Source: a virus. From it: 40,712 nt of DNA. Where the stretch lies: positions 1-40,712 of IMG/VR virus record IMGVR_UViG_3300019142_000011, one strand, 5' to 3'. Positions within the stretch are counted from its first letter, which is position 1. Each line of letters starts with the position of its first letter. Made by a program: the position numbers and the translations under genes. The notes beneath the pieces were generated by a model that saw nothing but the letters and a program-made list of their open reading frames with translations, was not told the origin of the DNA and ran no database searches. Below are positions 2,717 through 7,729 of this stretch, one piece after another.

Positions 2717-3135
2717 GGCTCGTCCACCTGAACGATCGTCAGGTTGACCCCATCGTCGGGGTGGTACGTCCAGCTCGCCTCGTACCCGTCCCACTCGGCG
2801 TCCTGCATCCCGTCGAGTGCGCGCGTGTTGTTCAGGCGGGACAGAACGTGGTCCGGCAGATCGACGGCTGCGAGAACGCAACTGATCGCGCTGTACCCCA
2901 CCCCTTCGCCGTACTTGTCCTTGCCGGACATGCTCAGGCTGCGACCCTCGTCACCGAGGTCGGCGTATTTCTGCTGCCCCGGCTTGATGCAGTCCTCGAA
3001 CGCCCCCTCCAGTGGCAGGGCAGCGGCTTCGGTGGGGCTGGGCGTTGGGACTGCGGTTGCAGTCGGCGTGGCCGCCGGCGGGTCCCCGCCGCAGGCCGCT
3101 GCGAGCACGACGAGTGCACCGATCAGGTATCGCAT
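2713..3135 (-). CDS. putative secreted lipoprotein
   Basis: A 140-residue protein starting at an ATG with GGGGAG just upstream. It has a short basic start, a hydrophobic stretch and a lipobox-like LAAAC with the lipidated cysteine at residue 15, then a Pro/Thr/Ala-rich linker to about residue 40, typical of surface lipoproteins of Gram-positive bacteria. The rest is a small folded domain with two cysteines (near EDCIKPGQQKYADLG and AISCVLAAV). It overlaps the ImmA-like gene by 13 bp. Temperate phages often express lipoproteins from the lysogeny region to block superinfection; that role here is inferred only from position and architecture. Confidence 0.7.
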   Translation of the reverse strand: MRYLIGALVVLAAACGGDPPAATPTATAVPTPSPTEAAALPLEGAFEDCIKPGQQKYADLGDEGRSLSMSGKDKYGEGVGYSAISCVLAAVDLPDHVLSRLNNTRALDGMQDAEWDGYEASWTYHPDDGVNLTIVQVDEP

Positions 3136-3563
3136 GACTCTCCCCTCGTCACACGTGCGACCGCCTCGGACAGCCGCGCGTTCATCAGCTCCATCGCCCG
3201 TCGCGCCACACGCTCGGTGACGTGGAACTCCTCGGCGACGTGCCACACCTCCACGTGCACGCACGCCGACTCCAAGCTGACCACGAAACGCACAAGGTCG
3301 GCGTACGGGACCAAGCGTTGCACTGCCACGTCATCGACGAGTCGCTCATCGCGCGCGACGACGGGCTGCCAGTCAGTGGGCATGAACACGCCATCACACC
3401 CGCCGCCCCGCTCGTCATGGACGAGCTCATGCGCGAGAACACACCTCCGCTGAACTTGCGACAGACGCGGGTCGATCACGATCGCCGCACACCCCGACGG
3501 ATGGGGTACGCACAAAGGAAGGTGCACCGTTCGGCCACGTCGATTTCGCCGCACGCTGAGCAC
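3123..3563 (-). CDS. ImmA/IrrE-family metallopeptidase-like protein
   Basis: About 146 residues. It contains HELVH at residues 45-49, the HExxH zinc-peptidase motif, preceded by SQVQRRCVLA, which is typical of short ImmA/IrrE proteins. ImmA proteases cleave phage or ICE repressors to trigger induction. The start is uncertain: the GTG at 3563 has no clear ribosome site, and the first 40 or so codons overlap a Cys-containing frame with a strong one. The zinc ligands after the motif are less clear. It sits in a compact minus-strand group with the methyltransferase and the lipoprotein, away from the XRE repressor at 15 kb. Confidence 0.75.
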   Translation of the reverse strand: MLSVRRNRRGRTVHLPLCVPHPSGCAAIVIDPRLSQVQRRCVLAHELVHDERGGGCDGVFMPTDWQPVVARDERLVDDVAVQRLVPYADLVRFVVSLESACVHVEVWHVAEEFHVTERVARRAMELMNARLSEAVARVTRGESCDT

Positions 3564-3601
3564 ACCGCGCCTGAGAGCACTGCGCGTTCACTGTCGTTCA
3601 T
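3476..3601 (-). CDS. small Cys-pair ORF overlapping the ImmA-like gene
   Basis: A 41-residue frame with an ATG preceded by AGAGGGG at an ideal distance, which is the best ribosome site in this stretch. It contains a CSAC pair at residues 14-17 and a second Cys pair CTFLC, suggesting a tiny zinc-binding peptide. It begins inside the end of the methyltransferase gene and lies largely over the N-terminal codons of the ImmA-like gene in another frame. It could be a true small protein that couples translation, or the real N terminus of the ImmA-like protein separated by a frameshift or sequence error. Confidence 0.4.
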   Translation of the reverse strand: MNDSERAVLSGAVCSACGEIDVAERCTFLCAYPIRRGVRRS

Positions 3602-4667
3602 CGGCCCCTCTTTTCCTCCCTTCCGCTGTCATCGCCACGTCCTCATAGAGGCGAGCGCGCTGCGCAAGGCGGATGAATGCGACCGCCGCCACGAGCGGTA
3701 CGACGCCGTTGCCGATCGTGTGGATTCGGTCCAGCCGAGAGGCCAGCCCATCAGCCACTCGTCGAACAGCGGGTTGAGGACCATCGGCTGCGACGACTCG
3801 GCGCCATCCGTGGGTGTCGCTGGGCGGGGGGGGCCAGAGTGGAATTCCCTCGCCTGGAAGGGCAGGTCCTGGCCGCCTCGACTGTGGTTGCCGAACGCGC
3901 CCTTGACGTCTCGCGCGGTCGGTGTCGCCCACAGCACCGCCTGGGTGGTCAGGCTCGGCGACATTGAGCCGCGCGGCTGGTGCCGGCCCCGCTTTCCCTT
4001 GGCCAGATCCGGGCCGCCCTCGCGCGCTCGGGGTGTCGCCCACAACTGGCCGTGGGTTTCGGCCGCCTGGCGCACCGCCACGTCCGTCAGCGTTGAGCCA
4101 TGGCCCCAGGATGGGTTGTAGCCGCCGCTGGAGCGCGAGTCGGCGCTCGTGGGCGTAGGCCAGGACGAAAAGACGGTTCCGGCCGTGGGTGGCCCCAACG
4201 GCTGCCGCGCCCAACACTCCCCATTCCGCATCGAACCCTGCTTCGGCCAGCGAGCCGAGAACGAGTCCGAGTCCTCCGCGAGTAGCGAGAGGCGGGACGT
4301 TTTCCAGGAACACAAGCTGTGGTCCCACTTCGCGAACCACCCGGGCGATGTCGTCCCATAGCCATCGCTCGTCTTCGACTCCGGCCTTGGCGCCGGCGTC
4401 GGACCACGGCTGGCAGGGGAACCCCGCAGAGACGAGATCCACAACGCCGCGCCACGGGACGCCGTCGAAGGTGCGCACATCGTCCCAGACAGGAGCTTCG
4501 TCCAAGGCCTGGTCCTCCATCCGCGCCACGAGAGTGGCCGCTGCGAATGCGTCCCGCTCGACTGCACCCACAAGGCGATATCCGCGGCCCAAAACAAGCT
4601 GTAGTCCGAGTTCGAGTCCGCCAGCTCCGGCGCACAGGGCAAGGCCACCGAGGGGATGTGCAGCCAC
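3588..4667 (-). CDS. dcm: DNA cytosine-5 methyltransferase
   Basis: A C5-cytosine DNA methyltransferase of about 359 residues. Counting from the GTG at 4667: motif I is LCAGAGGLELG (about 11-21), motif IV with the catalytic Cys is GFPCQPWS (82-89), the ENV motif is LENVPPL (121-127), motif VIII is GRNRLFVLA, and motif X GNGVVP is near 319. The frame is open upstream to a TTG at 4757, but that codon has a poor ribosome site. It probably protects phage DNA from host restriction; no partner endonuclease was seen. A second frame, open over the same DNA, also resembles phage proteins (see 3629-4672), and a run of eight C on the coding strand at 3826-3833 could switch frames. Confidence 0.85.
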   Translation of the reverse strand: MAAHPLGGLALCAGAGGLELGLQLVLGRGYRLVGAVERDAFAAATLVARMEDQALDEAPVWDDVRTFDGVPWRGVVDLVSAGFPCQPWSDAGAKAGVEDERWLWDDIARVVREVGPQLVFLENVPPLATRGGLGLVLGSLAEAGFDAEWGVLGAAAVGATHGRNRLFVLAYAHERRLALQRRLQPILGPWLNADGRGGAPGGRNPRPVVGDTPSARGRPGSGQGKAGPAPAARLNVAEPDHPGGAVGDTDRARRQGRVRQPQSRRPGPALPGEGIPLWPPPPSDTHGWRRVVAADGPQPAVRRVADGLASRLDRIHTIGNGVVPLVAAVAFIRLAQRARLYEDVAMTAEGRKRGADERQ

Positions 4668-4672
4668 GTCAC
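3629..4672 (-). CDS. overprinted frame within the cytosine methyltransferase gene
   Basis: A 347-codon open frame, shifted relative to the methyltransferase, from a GTG at 4672. Its product begins VTWLHIPSVALPC and carries GSMRNGECW (about 146), a WPTPTSAD block (about 173), further WATPR and WATPTARD blocks, and ends with LNPLFDEWLMGWPLGW. From memory these motifs match a set of phage proteins found as separate entries, so the frame does not look like random antisense or out-of-frame noise. The stop-start overlap with the 27-codon leader puts its GTG directly on a terminating codon. It may be a real overlapping gene or a relic of an ancestral frame of the same gene. Confidence 0.35.
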   Translation of the reverse strand: MTWLHIPSVALPCAPELADSNSDYSLFWAADIALWVQSSGTHSQRPLSWRGWRTRPWTKLLSGTMCAPSTASRGAALWISSLRGSPASRGPTPAPRPESKTSDGYGTTSPGWFAKWDHSLCSWKTSRLSLLAEDSDSFSARWPKQGSMRNGECWARQPLGPPTAGTVFSSWPTPTSADSRSSGGYNPSWGHGSTLTDVAVRQAAETHGQLWATPRAREGGPDLAKGKRGRHQPRGSMSPSLTTQAVLWATPTARDVKGAFGNHSRGGQDLPFQAREFHSGPPRPATPTDGAESSQPMVLNPLFDEWLMGWPLGWTESTRSATASYRSWRRSHSSALRSALASMRTWR

Positions 4673-4752
4673 GGCCGGGCTGCGGCGGCGGTAGTCGAGG
4701 AAAGCCTCTCTCGGCCCTTGTGCTTGTCCATGCTGATCGTCGCGAGATCCAC
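4669..4752 (-). CDS. 27-codon leader frame ahead of the methyltransferase
   Basis: A GTG-started 27-residue frame with GAGAGGG 6 nt upstream, the best ribosome site before the methyltransferase. Its TGA stop at 4671-4669 overlaps the GTG of the overprinted frame (4672-4670), and one base later comes the GTG used for the methyltransferase (4667-4665). This would allow translational coupling to both. Alternatively it is the true N terminus of the methyltransferase, cut off by small indels. No family is recognised. Confidence 0.4.
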   Translation of the reverse strand: MDLATISMDKHKGRERLSSTTAAAARP

Positions 4753-4766
4753 GGCAATCCCTCTCG

Positions 4767-5150
4767 TCAGATCGGTCCTGCAGGCAACAACGACGGCTCA
4801 TCCACCGGCGGCGCCTCCGGCGGCGGCACAAACCCGCCAGGCGCCGACGACACAGCCCGACGCCCCTCACCGCGCCGGCGACGGGCGAGCTCCTCGAACC
4901 ACAACTGCGTCCGCCCCTGCGGCCACCCATACGAGACATGGCACTTCTCGCACACCGCCTCGAGGAAATAACGTCGCGCGTTCTGCCCGGGCGGGTCACC
5001 GACGGGGCGCAGCCACCCGTCACAGCCGTGCGCGGCACAGATGGCCGAGTCGAGCGGGGCGTTGAGCCGGCGGGCGGTAACCCATTCGAGGATGGAGACG
5101 ACGTAGGCCGAGCCGGTGCAGTCGGACATGTCGGGGTTCGCGACCTTCAC
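4767..5150 (-). CDS. hypothetical protein with two Cys/His pairs
   Basis: A 127-residue protein of unknown function. The GTG start at 5150 forms a GTGA overlap with the stop of the upstream methyltransferase gene. It has CAAHGC and CEKCH pairs around residues 45-75, likely one zinc site, then a basic segment LARRRRGEGRR and a Pro-rich tail. The layout looks like a small zinc-binding nucleic acid protein. It lies between two methyltransferase genes in the leftward operon, so a role linked to DNA modification is possible, but nothing in the sequence proves it. Confidence 0.65.
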   Translation of the reverse strand: MKVANPDMSDCTGSAYVVSILEWVTARRLNAPLDSAICAAHGCDGWLRPVGDPPGQNARRYFLEAVCEKCHVSYGWPQGRTQLWFEELARRRRGEGRRAVSSAPGGFVPPPEAPPVDEPSLLPAGPI

Positions 5151-6157
5151 AGCAGCGCCCCCTGCCGGTCGGCCCAGGTGCGGGCGCGGACTTTGGCGTC
5201 GTGCCCGGAGTGGTTGATCCGCCACTGGGCGAGTCGGCAGTAATCGGCTGAGAGGTCGATCGAGATCCCGACGCGGCCGAGCGCCTTGGCGACGAGCGCC
5301 GTGGTGCCCGTGCCGCCGAACGGGTCGAGGGCTACTCCGCCGGGCGGACACCATCCGAGGATCAGTCGCCGCGGGATCTCCGTAGGGAACGCTGCGAAGT
5401 GGTCGACGCCAAGCCACTCGGGAACGACCAGCGGCTCGGTCGCGATGGTCCACACCGACGGCGGCAGCGCGCCAGCCGGGTGCATCGACTTTATTCGCTC
5501 GATCGACTGCGGACGCGTACCGGGCGGATAGCGATCACGGCGCCCGGTCTGGGGCGCCCGGTGATCTGCAGCCCGGGCCACTGTCGCCGGAGAGTGATCG
5601 CCGCGCACCTCATCCATGGCTGCGAAGTAGCGGGCCTCGCGTGTGAAGTGAAAGAGGTACTCGTGGCTGCGCCGGCAGCGGTCCGTGACCGACTCGGGTA
5701 GGCCGTTGGGTTTGGACCACACGACGTCTTCACGAAGGACCAGGCCGAGTTCGTCGACGACTCGGTTGGCGTAGCGCCACGGGAGGCCAAGCAGGCTCTT
5801 CTGGGGCACGTCGAAGCGCGGGCGCGGGCCGGTAGGTCGGTGCTGCGCCTGGTTCGTCAACTTGCTCGAGTTGTCGTTCGGCCCGCGACGTCGCGACGCG
5901 TACTTGTCGCCGATGTTGATCCACAGCGACCCCGACGGCTTGAGCACGCGGACCGCTTCGGCGGTCACCTCGAGCAGGGCGTCGAGGTACTCGGCGGGTG
6001 TGCGCTCGGACCCGATCTGGCCGTCAAAGGTCTCGCCACCGTCCGTGTAGGACCGCAATGCGAAGTACGGCGGCGACGTAACGACAAGGTCGACTGACTC
6101 GTCGGCGAGCGGCAGCGCCCGCGCGTGGCCACGCAGCACGATCGCTGAGCCAGTCAC
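5147..6157 (-). CDS. DNA amino-methyltransferase (N4-cytosine or N6-adenine)
   Basis: A 336-residue DNA methyltransferase. The catalytic motif TSPPY is at residues 27-31 and the AdoMet-binding motif DPFGGTGTT is at 278-286, so the catalytic motif comes first, as in beta-class enzymes. The SPPY form is common in N4-cytosine enzymes but also occurs in adenine enzymes, so the modified base cannot be settled. The GTG at 6157 overlaps the previous stop as GTGA. No restriction endonuclease is near, so an orphan, anti-restriction role is likely. Confidence 0.88.
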   Translation of the reverse strand: MTGSAIVLRGHARALPLADESVDLVVTSPPYFALRSYTDGGETFDGQIGSERTPAEYLDALLEVTAEAVRVLKPSGSLWINIGDKYASRRRGPNDNSSKLTNQAQHRPTGPRPRFDVPQKSLLGLPWRYANRVVDELGLVLREDVVWSKPNGLPESVTDRCRRSHEYLFHFTREARYFAAMDEVRGDHSPATVARAADHRAPQTGRRDRYPPGTRPQSIERIKSMHPAGALPPSVWTIATEPLVVPEWLGVDHFAAFPTEIPRRLILGWCPPGGVALDPFGGTGTTALVAKALGRVGISIDLSADYCRLAQWRINHSGHDAKVRARTWADRQGALL

Positions 6158-6492
6158 GTAGCGGTCGCCGCCCCGGAGTACTGCCAGGCGTTGGCCCAGC
6201 ACCACGGCCACGCGTTGTGGCCGCCTTGGCGGTCGCGCAGCAATCGGCCGCGGCGCAGCTGCTCACGGCGGGTCGCATGGTGCGGGTAGCCGCGGCCGCC
6301 GACCCACCGCCACGACGAGAGGGTGAACTGCAGGCCGCCGTAGTGGCCGTTGCCGGTGCTGATGTGCCACCGGTGACCGGACTCGCAGTGCGCGACTCTG
6401 CGCAGCCTGGTCGAACCGTGAGCGTCGGCCGGCGAGGTGTTGGCAACTGCCAACACGGTTGCGGCGGCGACAGCGGCGGCGGTGCGCCTCAC
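6154..6492 (-). CDS. secreted Rpf-like (transglycosylase-like) protein
   Basis: A 112-residue protein with an N-terminal signal peptide (VRRTAAAVAAATVLAVANTSPADA, given here only as its first 24 positions being hydrophobic and ending in Ala-Asp-Ala) and then an Rpf/lysozyme-like domain. The catalytic Glu is Glu37 in CESG, followed by ISTGNGHYGGLQF and a C-terminal AWPWC, all typical of resuscitation-promoting factors, which cleave peptidoglycan of actinobacteria and wake dormant cells. The GTG start overlaps the upstream replication gene as GTGA. It lies in the early operon, 33 kb from the lysis cassette, so it is probably not the main endolysin. It could act on the host wall during lysogeny or early infection. 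Confidence 0.8.
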   Translation of the reverse strand: MRRTAAAVAAATVLAVANTSPADAHGSTRLRRVAHCESGHRWHISTGNGHYGGLQFTLSSWRWVGGRGYPHHATRREQLRRGRLLRDRQGGHNAWPWCWANAWQYSGAATAT

Positions 6493-7514
6493 CGCGCACC
6501 CGCCTTCGCGTCGGCCAGACACTGCGCGGCGTACGCCACGACGTTGTCCGCGCCACGACTGACCGCGGTTTCCAAGGCCTCGAGGACCACCAGGGCGTCG
6601 TCGTCGACGCCGCGGACCAGCGACTGCAACCGTGGGATCTCGGCGCGCACGTCGCGGACGGTGAGCAACGCCAGGTGCTCGGCGAGCAGCTTCGCGGCAG
6701 CCTCGGAGAACGCGAACCCGCGGTAGTCACGCTGGGCCTGACCCAGCGCGTGCTCGGTCACCTCCCGGGTGCGCATCCCCCCGCCGACGCCGGCGCGCTG
6801 GCACAGCTGGACCCGCAGCGACGTCGCGGCCGCGGCGGCGGCCGGCGTGATGGTTTCGTCGAGCACCACGGTGGGCGCGTCGGGTTTGGCCGTTGGGGGT
6901 TCCACGCGAAGCGAGTCGTCGTCGTCGCGCGCAGCGCGTGAGGACGAGGACGAGTCTGAGACAGAGTCCGAGGATGAGGATGAGGACTCGCGCGCGGAAG
7001 GGCTCCGGTTCCCTATCGGTTGGGTATCGGTTGGGTATCCCGTTGGGGTATCGGGAAGGTATGGGGCTAGGTGGCGGAGCTTCGCCCCCGCGGTCTCACG
7101 GGCGGCGTGCTTGCGGATCTGGCCGGCGAACGCCGGAGCGACCTGCACCGCGGACTCGTAGAACGGGGTCATCAGCGGCGTCGGCGGCAGCTGCGCCAGC
7201 CGGTTGATCGCGCCCGCGATCTGCTTCTCCCCCGCCGGCGGCAGCTGCTTGAGCGCGTTGACGATCAGCACGGTGTGGCTGGGGTTGTCGTAGGTGATGA
7301 ACCCGGCTTGCTGCAACGCGGCCACGGCACGCGCCACCTTCGCGGCCGCCCAGCCCAGGTCATCGGACATCAGCGCCTTGGGCAGCCGGTACAGCCCTTC
7401 GGTGGTACGCCGCTCGTTGGTGAGCAGATACATCGCGAGGTGGCGCGGTGTGTCCTGAAGGCTGCGGATGCGCGGGTCGATCCAGAACCGCGAGTCGATG
7501 AGATGCTTCGCCAT
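6489..7514 (-). CDS. phage replication initiator-like protein (DnaD/O-like organisation)
   Basis: A 341-residue protein starting MAKHLIDSRFW. Residues 20-95 look like a winged-helix domain (TNERRTTEGLYRLPKALMSDDLGW, abbreviated to its first and last parts, then QQAGFITYDN). The middle (about 150-205) is low-complexity: a Pro/Thr/Asp stretch and then a Ser/Asp-rich run. The C-terminal 130 residues are helical and may contact helicase. Phage initiators and replisome organisers share this plan. The ATG at 7514 shares its A with the upstream stop (TGATG). Five short direct repeats lie inside the gene at 7014-7071 and may be the origin, as oriλ lies inside gene O. No helicase or polymerase gene is seen, so host replication proteins would be recruited. 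Confidence 0.65.
   Translation of the reverse strand: MAKHLIDSRFWIDPRIRSLQDTPRHLAMYLLTNERRTTEGLYRLPKALMSDDLGWAAAKVARAVAALQQAGFITYDNPSHTVLIVNALKQLPPAGEKQIAGAINRLAQLPPTPLMTPFYESAVQVAPAFAGQIRKHAARETAGAKLRHLAPYLPDTPTGYPTDTQPIGNRSPSARESSSSSSDSVSDSSSSSRAARDDDDSLRVEPPTAKPDAPTVVLDETITPAAAAAATSLRVQLCQRAGVGGGMRTREVTEHALGQAQRDYRGFAFSEAAAKLLAEHLALLTVRDVRAEIPRLQSLVRGVDDDALVVLEALETAVSRGADNVVAYAAQCLADAKAGAR
7014..7071 (+). repeat. iteron-like repeats inside the replication gene
   Basis: Five head-to-tail units: TATCGGTTGGG at 7014 and again at 7025, TATCCCGTTGGGG at 7036, TATCGGGAAGG at 7049 and TATGGGGCTAGG at 7060. Spacing is 11, 11, 13 and 11 bp, close to one helical turn. The adjacent 6945-6995 stretch is strongly purine-biased on the plus strand. 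Together they look like initiator-binding iterons beside a melting region, but they may also only reflect the low-complexity protein linker. Confidence 0.5.
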
Positions 7515-7729
7515 CAGGTGGCGCCTCCGTGTCGGGCGGGGTCTGGGTCGAGCACGTGGACGTGGCGGGGCTGAGGTGTCCGCCGGCGGACGATGCGGCG
7601 GTGCTGGACGAACCAGCCGTGGACGTCGCGGGCGACCAGCCGCGCGGCGAAGGTGGCGACCCACAAGGTGCCGGCGAGGATCACCAGCAGGAGCAGGTGC
7701 GCGGCGTAGAACGCGACCCAGAACTTCAC
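7514..7729 (-). CDS. small single-span membrane protein
   Basis: A 71-residue protein with one clear membrane segment at about residues 3-28 (VAFYAAHLLLLVILAG and on) and a basic, Arg/His-rich cytoplasmic tail (QHRRIVRRRTPQPRH). The GTG at 7729 forms a GTGA overlap with the gene before it, and its stop shares bases with the ATG of the replication gene. The function is unknown. Its position just ahead of the initiator suggests an early role at the membrane. Confidence 0.65.
   Translation of the reverse strand: MKFWVAFYAAHLLLLVILAGTLWVATFAARLVARDVHGWFVQHRRIVRRRTPQPRHVHVLDPDPARHGGAT

Follow-up and report, generated by a model that had tools for sequence, protein, structure and literature searches.

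C5-cytosine DNA methyltransferases are built from a large domain that carries motifs I-VIII and X, and a small domain that carries the target-recognition region and motif IX. In M.EcoHK31I, a two-polypeptide enzyme of this class directed to YGGCCR, the small subunit has a size of reportedly about 23 kDa and is said, in a 1995 description by Lee and colleagues, to be translated from a different frame of the gene for the large subunit. The large subunit of that enzyme contains motifs I-VIII and X, together with the predicted target-recognition domain, and the small subunit contains motif IX (PMC3404938). A second split enzyme, M.AquI (CYCGRG), has motifs I-VIII on one polypeptide and motifs IX and X on the other (PMC3404938). 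Overlapping frames inside phage methylase genes are also produced by endonuclease-encoding mobile insertions; the overlapping frame considered here would instead be part of the methyltransferase itself. In a literature search, which had subscription papers outside its reach, we found no published phage report of such an overlap.

The locus lies in a window of 40,712 nucleotides, the whole of viral record IMGVR_UViG_3300019142_000011. Its motif layout, as far as that of M.EcoHK31I has been described, is the same: motif IX is placed on the second chain in the window and in 202 of 222 related loci. The second chain is read in another frame, +1 in all 222 loci, which agrees with the overlap reported for M.EcoHK31I. 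The systems differ in several respects. The second frame here spans nearly the whole of the first, starts only 4-5 nt from it in many members and, at about 230-480 codons, encodes a larger chain than the small subunit of M.EcoHK31I (reportedly ~23 kDa); the target-recognition region seemingly lies in this second frame, whereas in M.EcoHK31I it is predicted in the large subunit; and the genes are borne by phages or prophages, with no partner nuclease seen. M.AquI is resembled only by minority variants described below, since motif X of the window is on the large chain and not together with motif IX on the second. It is the near-complete overlap, the starts 4-5 nt apart and the wide spread that look like the features setting this arrangement apart from known two-polypeptide methyltransferases.

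Results

Two open frames on one strand

A first-pass annotation of the window had described a C5-cytosine methyltransferase gene overlapped by an open frame of 347 codons, and reading of the sequence confirms both on the minus strand. The methyltransferase frame, which we call F1 (or alpha), is open over 3588-4757, up to a TTG at 4757; the likely start is the GTG at 4667, which gives a product of 359 aa (3588..4667) with the LCAGAGG, GFPCQPWS, LENV and GNGVVP peptides. The second frame, F2 (or beta; 3629..4672, minus strand, GTG start), is in the +1 phase relative to F1, covers nearly all of it, and remains open further upstream to 5038. It contains the annotated VTWLHIPS, GSMRNGECW, WPTPT, WATPR, WATPT and LNPLFDEWLMGWPLGW, and the same bases do encode ADGLASRLDRI in F1 and WLMGWPLGW in F2. 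When the synonymous codons of F1 in the window were shuffled, with its protein and codon usage kept, F2 acquired a mean of 3.6 stops, compared with 0 observed (P=0.007). Because the GC content of the window is 69%, the length of F2 and the outcome of this shuffle are modest evidence taken alone; we therefore examined relatives, and it is the comparative evidence that decides.

The F1 product is recognizable as the catalytic chain. It matches Pfam PF00145 (1.5e-28) and phrog_363 (2.7e-53), and its motifs are conserved in relatives: motif I, LALCAGAGGLELG, for SAM binding (4605..4643); motif IV, GFPCQPWS, with the catalytic Cys (4401..4424); motif VI, FLENV (4296..4310); motif VIII, GRNRLFVLA (4158..4184); and motif X, GNGVVP (3696..3713), all on the minus strand. 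Motifs I, IV (PCQ), VI (ENV) and VIII, by which PF00145 enzymes are identified, are conserved in 73 relatives. The AlphaFold model of F1 has a confident M.HhaI-like core, with a Foldseek match to the large-domain fold of M.HhaI (E 1e-13, ~176 columns), and contains no predicted small domain. Residues 197-276 and 297-311 fall below pLDDT 50, which indicates that the small domain is missing from F1. The PF00145 alignment stops at profile position 167 of 324, and neither this extent, nor the model, nor a motif search places a small domain or motif IX on the F1 chain.

F2 alone matches phrog_1008, a family also named 'DNA methyltransferase' (7.4e-28); Pfam and PDB sequence searches returned no match for it, and its single-chain structure model is poor (pLDDT 59). 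Three regions can be distinguished along the frame. A conserved block, GWFAKWDHSLCSWKTS...WPKQGSMRNGECW (4211..4342, minus strand), overlaps F1 motifs VI-VIII, where both frames are constrained. It is followed by a variable region (3908..4162, minus strand) with the W(P/A)TP blocks WPTPTSAD, WATPRARE and WATPTARD, which, from its variability and position, is probably the target-recognition region. Finally, LNPLFDEWLMGWPLGW (3731..3778, minus strand) is motif IX. Motif IX is thus in F2, with motifs I-VIII and X in F1.

The two overlapping peptides had been described in the first-pass annotation as common endings of different phage protein entries, and the profile matches bear this out: F1 and F2 each match one of two separately catalogued phage families. 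Although phrog_363 and phrog_1008 are catalogued as independent, in the loci that we read a single stretch of DNA encodes both, one in each frame. The accompanying suggestion that this DNA serves two families holds to the extent that two families are catalogued and both frames are coding; the families are not unrelated, both being named 'DNA methyltransferase' and F2 having the motif-IX part that F1 lacks.

Selection acts on both frames

We compared the similarity of each frame among 109 non-redundant genes with that in shuffles preserving the protein of the other frame. The excess of F2 over the shadow of F1 is highest at F1 residues 106-150 (GWFAKWDH..SWKTS..WPKQGSMRNGE; z 24-49) and at residues 301-315 (EWLMGWPLGW), where F2 motif IX has an excess similarity of 3.44 and a z of 74 beyond what F1 explains, with the third-frame control at z 49 in the same columns. 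The F1 peptide that overlaps this motif, RVADGLASRLDRI (3723-3761), has a shadow score of 1.24 of 2.68 and is largely a shadow of it. The RVADG of F1 arises because EWLMG forces it, GAR TGG CTN ATG GG reading R/G-V/M-A-x-G one base earlier, and it varies along with the F2 motif: EWMMG yields RMDDG in one member (L008).

Stop codons give a similar picture in both directions. Given F1, a single F2 stop is seen over F1 residues 106-300, where ~216 are expected, and 44 against 156 expected over residues 16-105; there is no depletion at residues 1-15 (58 vs 56), and the third-frame control is not depleted overall (1060 vs 1025). Conversely, given F2, the variable region contains 30 F1 stops against 619 expected, so that ~590 are missing, and the corresponding third-frame control gives 861 vs 811. 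The first ~100 residues of F2 are stop-poor, yet their similarity is within the third-frame control and is mostly shadow, from which we conclude that they are probably translated and little constrained.

The distribution of substitutions in close pairs indicates which frame is the conserved one in each part of the overlap. In the 5' part (F1 residues 8-105), 22/11/67% of differences fall on F1 codon positions 1/2/3, and in the variable part 68/18/14%, the first position of F1 being the wobble position of F2. This switch has a chi2 p of 4e-36 in ten pairs, namely those among 58 whose variable region aligns well. When all 58 pairs are taken, differences in the variable region divide 37/28/35%, as expected if divergent stretches misalign, and 58% of differences within motif IX still fall on the F2 wobble position. 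These data are drawn from the genes of relatives, the window gene being without a close DNA relative.

Both frames are under selection, the property by which an overprinted gene pair is recognized; stop depletion and wobble positions in relatives agree that both are coding. The proposal that F2 is not random is therefore upheld by the stop depletion, by conservation in the +1 frame and by the wobble pattern in relatives. The first-pass annotation had also set out what would speak against it, namely a lack of F2 homologues outside methyltransferase DNA together with synonymous change in F1 that freely breaks F2. The first was found, F2 homologues occurring essentially only over methyltransferase DNA (222/222 loci); the second was not, as F2 is the conserved frame in the 3' half.

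Related loci and variant forms

The 222 loci comprise 12 annotated loci, 80 viral contigs from the F2 search, 50 viral contigs from a search with F1 only, and 80 contigs from bacterial or archaeal genomes. An F2 match at the +1 frame is present in every one, across phages, plasmids and bacterial and archaeal genomes, and 202 combine motif IX in F2 with motif X in the F1 ORF. Because F2 is also found in 50/50 of the loci chosen by F1 alone, the pattern is not merely a selection effect. Searches of phages and plasmids with F2 match inside methyltransferase genes of distant phages, and none of the 222 loci has F2 without a methyltransferase core. Both frames are open in loci of 42-44% GC, including those of an Acinetobacter phage (L007), a Leptospira plasmid (L013) and a Paenibacillus phage (L006), in the last of which the record labels the inner frame 'g55 internal gene'; F2 occurs also over genes of 46-50% GC.

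Split forms with motif X in F2 are found at L003, L004, L009, L011, L035, L042 and L206, and it is these variants that resemble M.AquI. Motif IX is followed by GNGV in the same frame, the order expected of motifs IX and X. The C-halves of this type match phrog_1008; they also match phrog_116, a family of single-chain methyltransferases, at positions 409-497, and F1 matches the core of that family (213-378). The first-pass annotation had raised repeated frame switching in evolution; the movement of motif X into F2 in these variants supports that part of the idea, and the rest is not upheld. One chain (L127), with EWMMGFPEGW..GNAVV in a single frame, aligns without gaps, at a tiny score, to VMGYPDSYK..GNSVV of M.HhaI (motifs IX-X). 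We dropped it as a single-chain bridge, as its +1 frame retains the upstream F2 block and it may be a frameshifted copy; the single-chain link rests instead on the phrog_116 match.

Of six annotated genes considered as single-chain controls, five proved unsuitable. Three (L224, L226 and L228) begin an F2 with a motif-IX signature inside F1, L229 has a nearly full-length F2, and L227 has a partial F2 without motif IX. The sole negative control, L225, has motif IX in its own frame and 17 stops in the +1 frame. This gene, a single-chain Streptococcus phage methyltransferase (538-1620, 41% GC), also has a 160-codon open +1 stretch with LSDILEENIPEEFFLSAEKI, which may reflect another frame change.

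Several further loci depart from the common form. At L091, L124, L151, L153, L156, L157 and L181, stops interrupt F1 within the variable region without a break in F2, and motif X reappears in an F1-frame ORF of its own; this interruption could be decay, an error or a three-piece form. The F2 of L116 (2346-3728), with 461 codons, contains two motif-IX/X-like regions and its own motif X at the end, and is possibly an intermediate form. In the Methanomethylovorans hollandica archaeal plasmid (L224, 1077-1868, minus strand), a gene recorded as dcm (43% GC) has the same motif IX in its +1 frame. A Sphingomonas plasmid record (L010, 1378-2469) annotates F2 alone, as a hypothetical protein, and leaves the catalytic F1 unannotated; in most other annotated records F1 is annotated and F2 is not.

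Paired start codons

The start codons proposed for the window are paired in GTGACGTG (4665..4672, minus strand), with the GTG of F2 at 4672-4670 and that of F1 at 4667-4665, an offset of -5. In relatives the commonest arrangement has the F2 ATG +4 nt after the F1 ATG (ATGAATG), and -5 is second. Where an F2 ATG or GTG lies at -30..0 before the F1 core start, 72% of these starts in relatives have a Shine-Dalgarno sequence, compared with a 10% background. In the window, no obvious Shine-Dalgarno sequence belongs to the GTG start of either F2 or F1. Just upstream is a 27-codon ORF (4669..4752, minus strand) that begins with GTG at 4752 and is preceded by GAGAGGG. The TGA that ends it shares bases with the F2 start (GTGA), an arrangement suggestive of translational coupling, and translation of F2 in the window is possibly coupled to this ORF.

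Discussion

We consider it probable, at about 0.82, that a C5-cytosine DNA methyltransferase of two subunits is encoded here by a pair of genes that lie on the same strand and overlap over almost their whole length. In this model, F1 would supply the catalytic large domain, consisting of motifs I-VIII, a poorly ordered stretch and motif X, and F2 would supply the remainder, a variable and probably target-recognising region together with motif IX. Translation of the two chains would begin at start codons separated by 4-5 nt and served by a single ribosome-binding region, and in the window it may be coupled to the small upstream ORF. The chains would then join in one enzyme acting on phage DNA, whose methylation would presumably protect it from host restriction. 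The openness and conservation of both frames, the selection on them and the placement of the motifs are observed directly; we infer the separate starts of both chains, their assembly, target recognition by F2 and enzyme activity.

The alternative that fares best, and which we regard as unlikely, is programmed frameshifting, in which the ribosome begins in F1, moves into F2 by a +1 shift once motif VIII has been read, and may return to F1 for motif X, to give one fused methyltransferase. The split forms are consistent with such a scheme, as their motif X is in F2 and a single +1 shift produces a complete enzyme, and so is the finding that the first 100 residues of F2 are no more similar than the third-frame control. 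However, a mid-gene shift does not need F2 to be stop-poor from near the F1 start (44 vs 156 at residues 16-105), nor F1 to be stop-poor across the variable region (30 vs 619). In addition, a Shine-Dalgarno sequence accompanies a separate F2 start in relatives, and the common form needs two shifts.

It is much less probable that F2, overprinted on the methyltransferase gene, is a separate functional protein with a role outside methylation, such as that of a regulator or an anti-defence protein. Its N-terminal half has no known relatives and its structure model is poor, but the best-conserved part of F2 is motif-IX-like, exactly what F1 lacks, its relatives of the split form have motif X and resemble a family of single-chain methyltransferases, and F2 occurs without a methyltransferase core in 0/222 loci. 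The remaining reading, that F2 is a mere shadow of a conserved GC-rich F1 and its catalogue families are mis-annotated ORFs, finds some encouragement in the GC-rich window, where long non-coding ORFs are common, and in the mostly shadow-like F2 N-terminus, and is very improbable in the face of the wobble switch, the stop depletion given F1 with the third frame as control, the presence of F2 in genes of 46-50% GC, and a conservation of EWLMG far in excess of the needs of F1.

The two-subunit reading has wider implications. The arrangement is spread over hundreds of phages and prophages and one archaeal plasmid, and databases usually annotate one of the frames. On balance we favor, with less assurance than for the locus itself, the view that what is catalogued as two unrelated families is in fact a major class of C5-methyltransferases from phages and prophages, each a single enzyme whose subunits are encoded in two frames with paired starts on one ribosome site. 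The lead in constraint would switch from F1 (catalysis) to F2 (recognition) and back to F1 (motif X), and changes in specificity would occur in F2, with F1 only tolerating them. If this is true, many of the phage annotations that read 'DNA methyltransferase' cover only one half of an enzyme, and F1 expressed alone would falsely look like an inactive methyltransferase. A phiBT1 gene is annotated 'may be inactive'. The loci would also constitute a large natural set of long same-strand overlaps, across GC contents and host phyla and with a known structural logic, that serves to test how a single sequence evolves when it encodes two proteins. Naturally split methyltransferases are, moreover, wanted tools for targeted methylation (PMC3439449).

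The genes that flank the overlap in the window, all on the minus strand, include a second, unrelated methyltransferase (N6_N4_Mtase, PF01555, 1.6e-41) just upstream at 5147-6211, so that the phage carries two different methyltransferases close together. Upstream of both lies a DnaD-like helicase loader gene (6489-7664; phrog_1701, 2.5e-17), and directly downstream of the F1/F2 gene is a small metallo-protease-like gene (3123-3563; phrog_87, 3.8e-13; Pfam M78, 1.5e-4).
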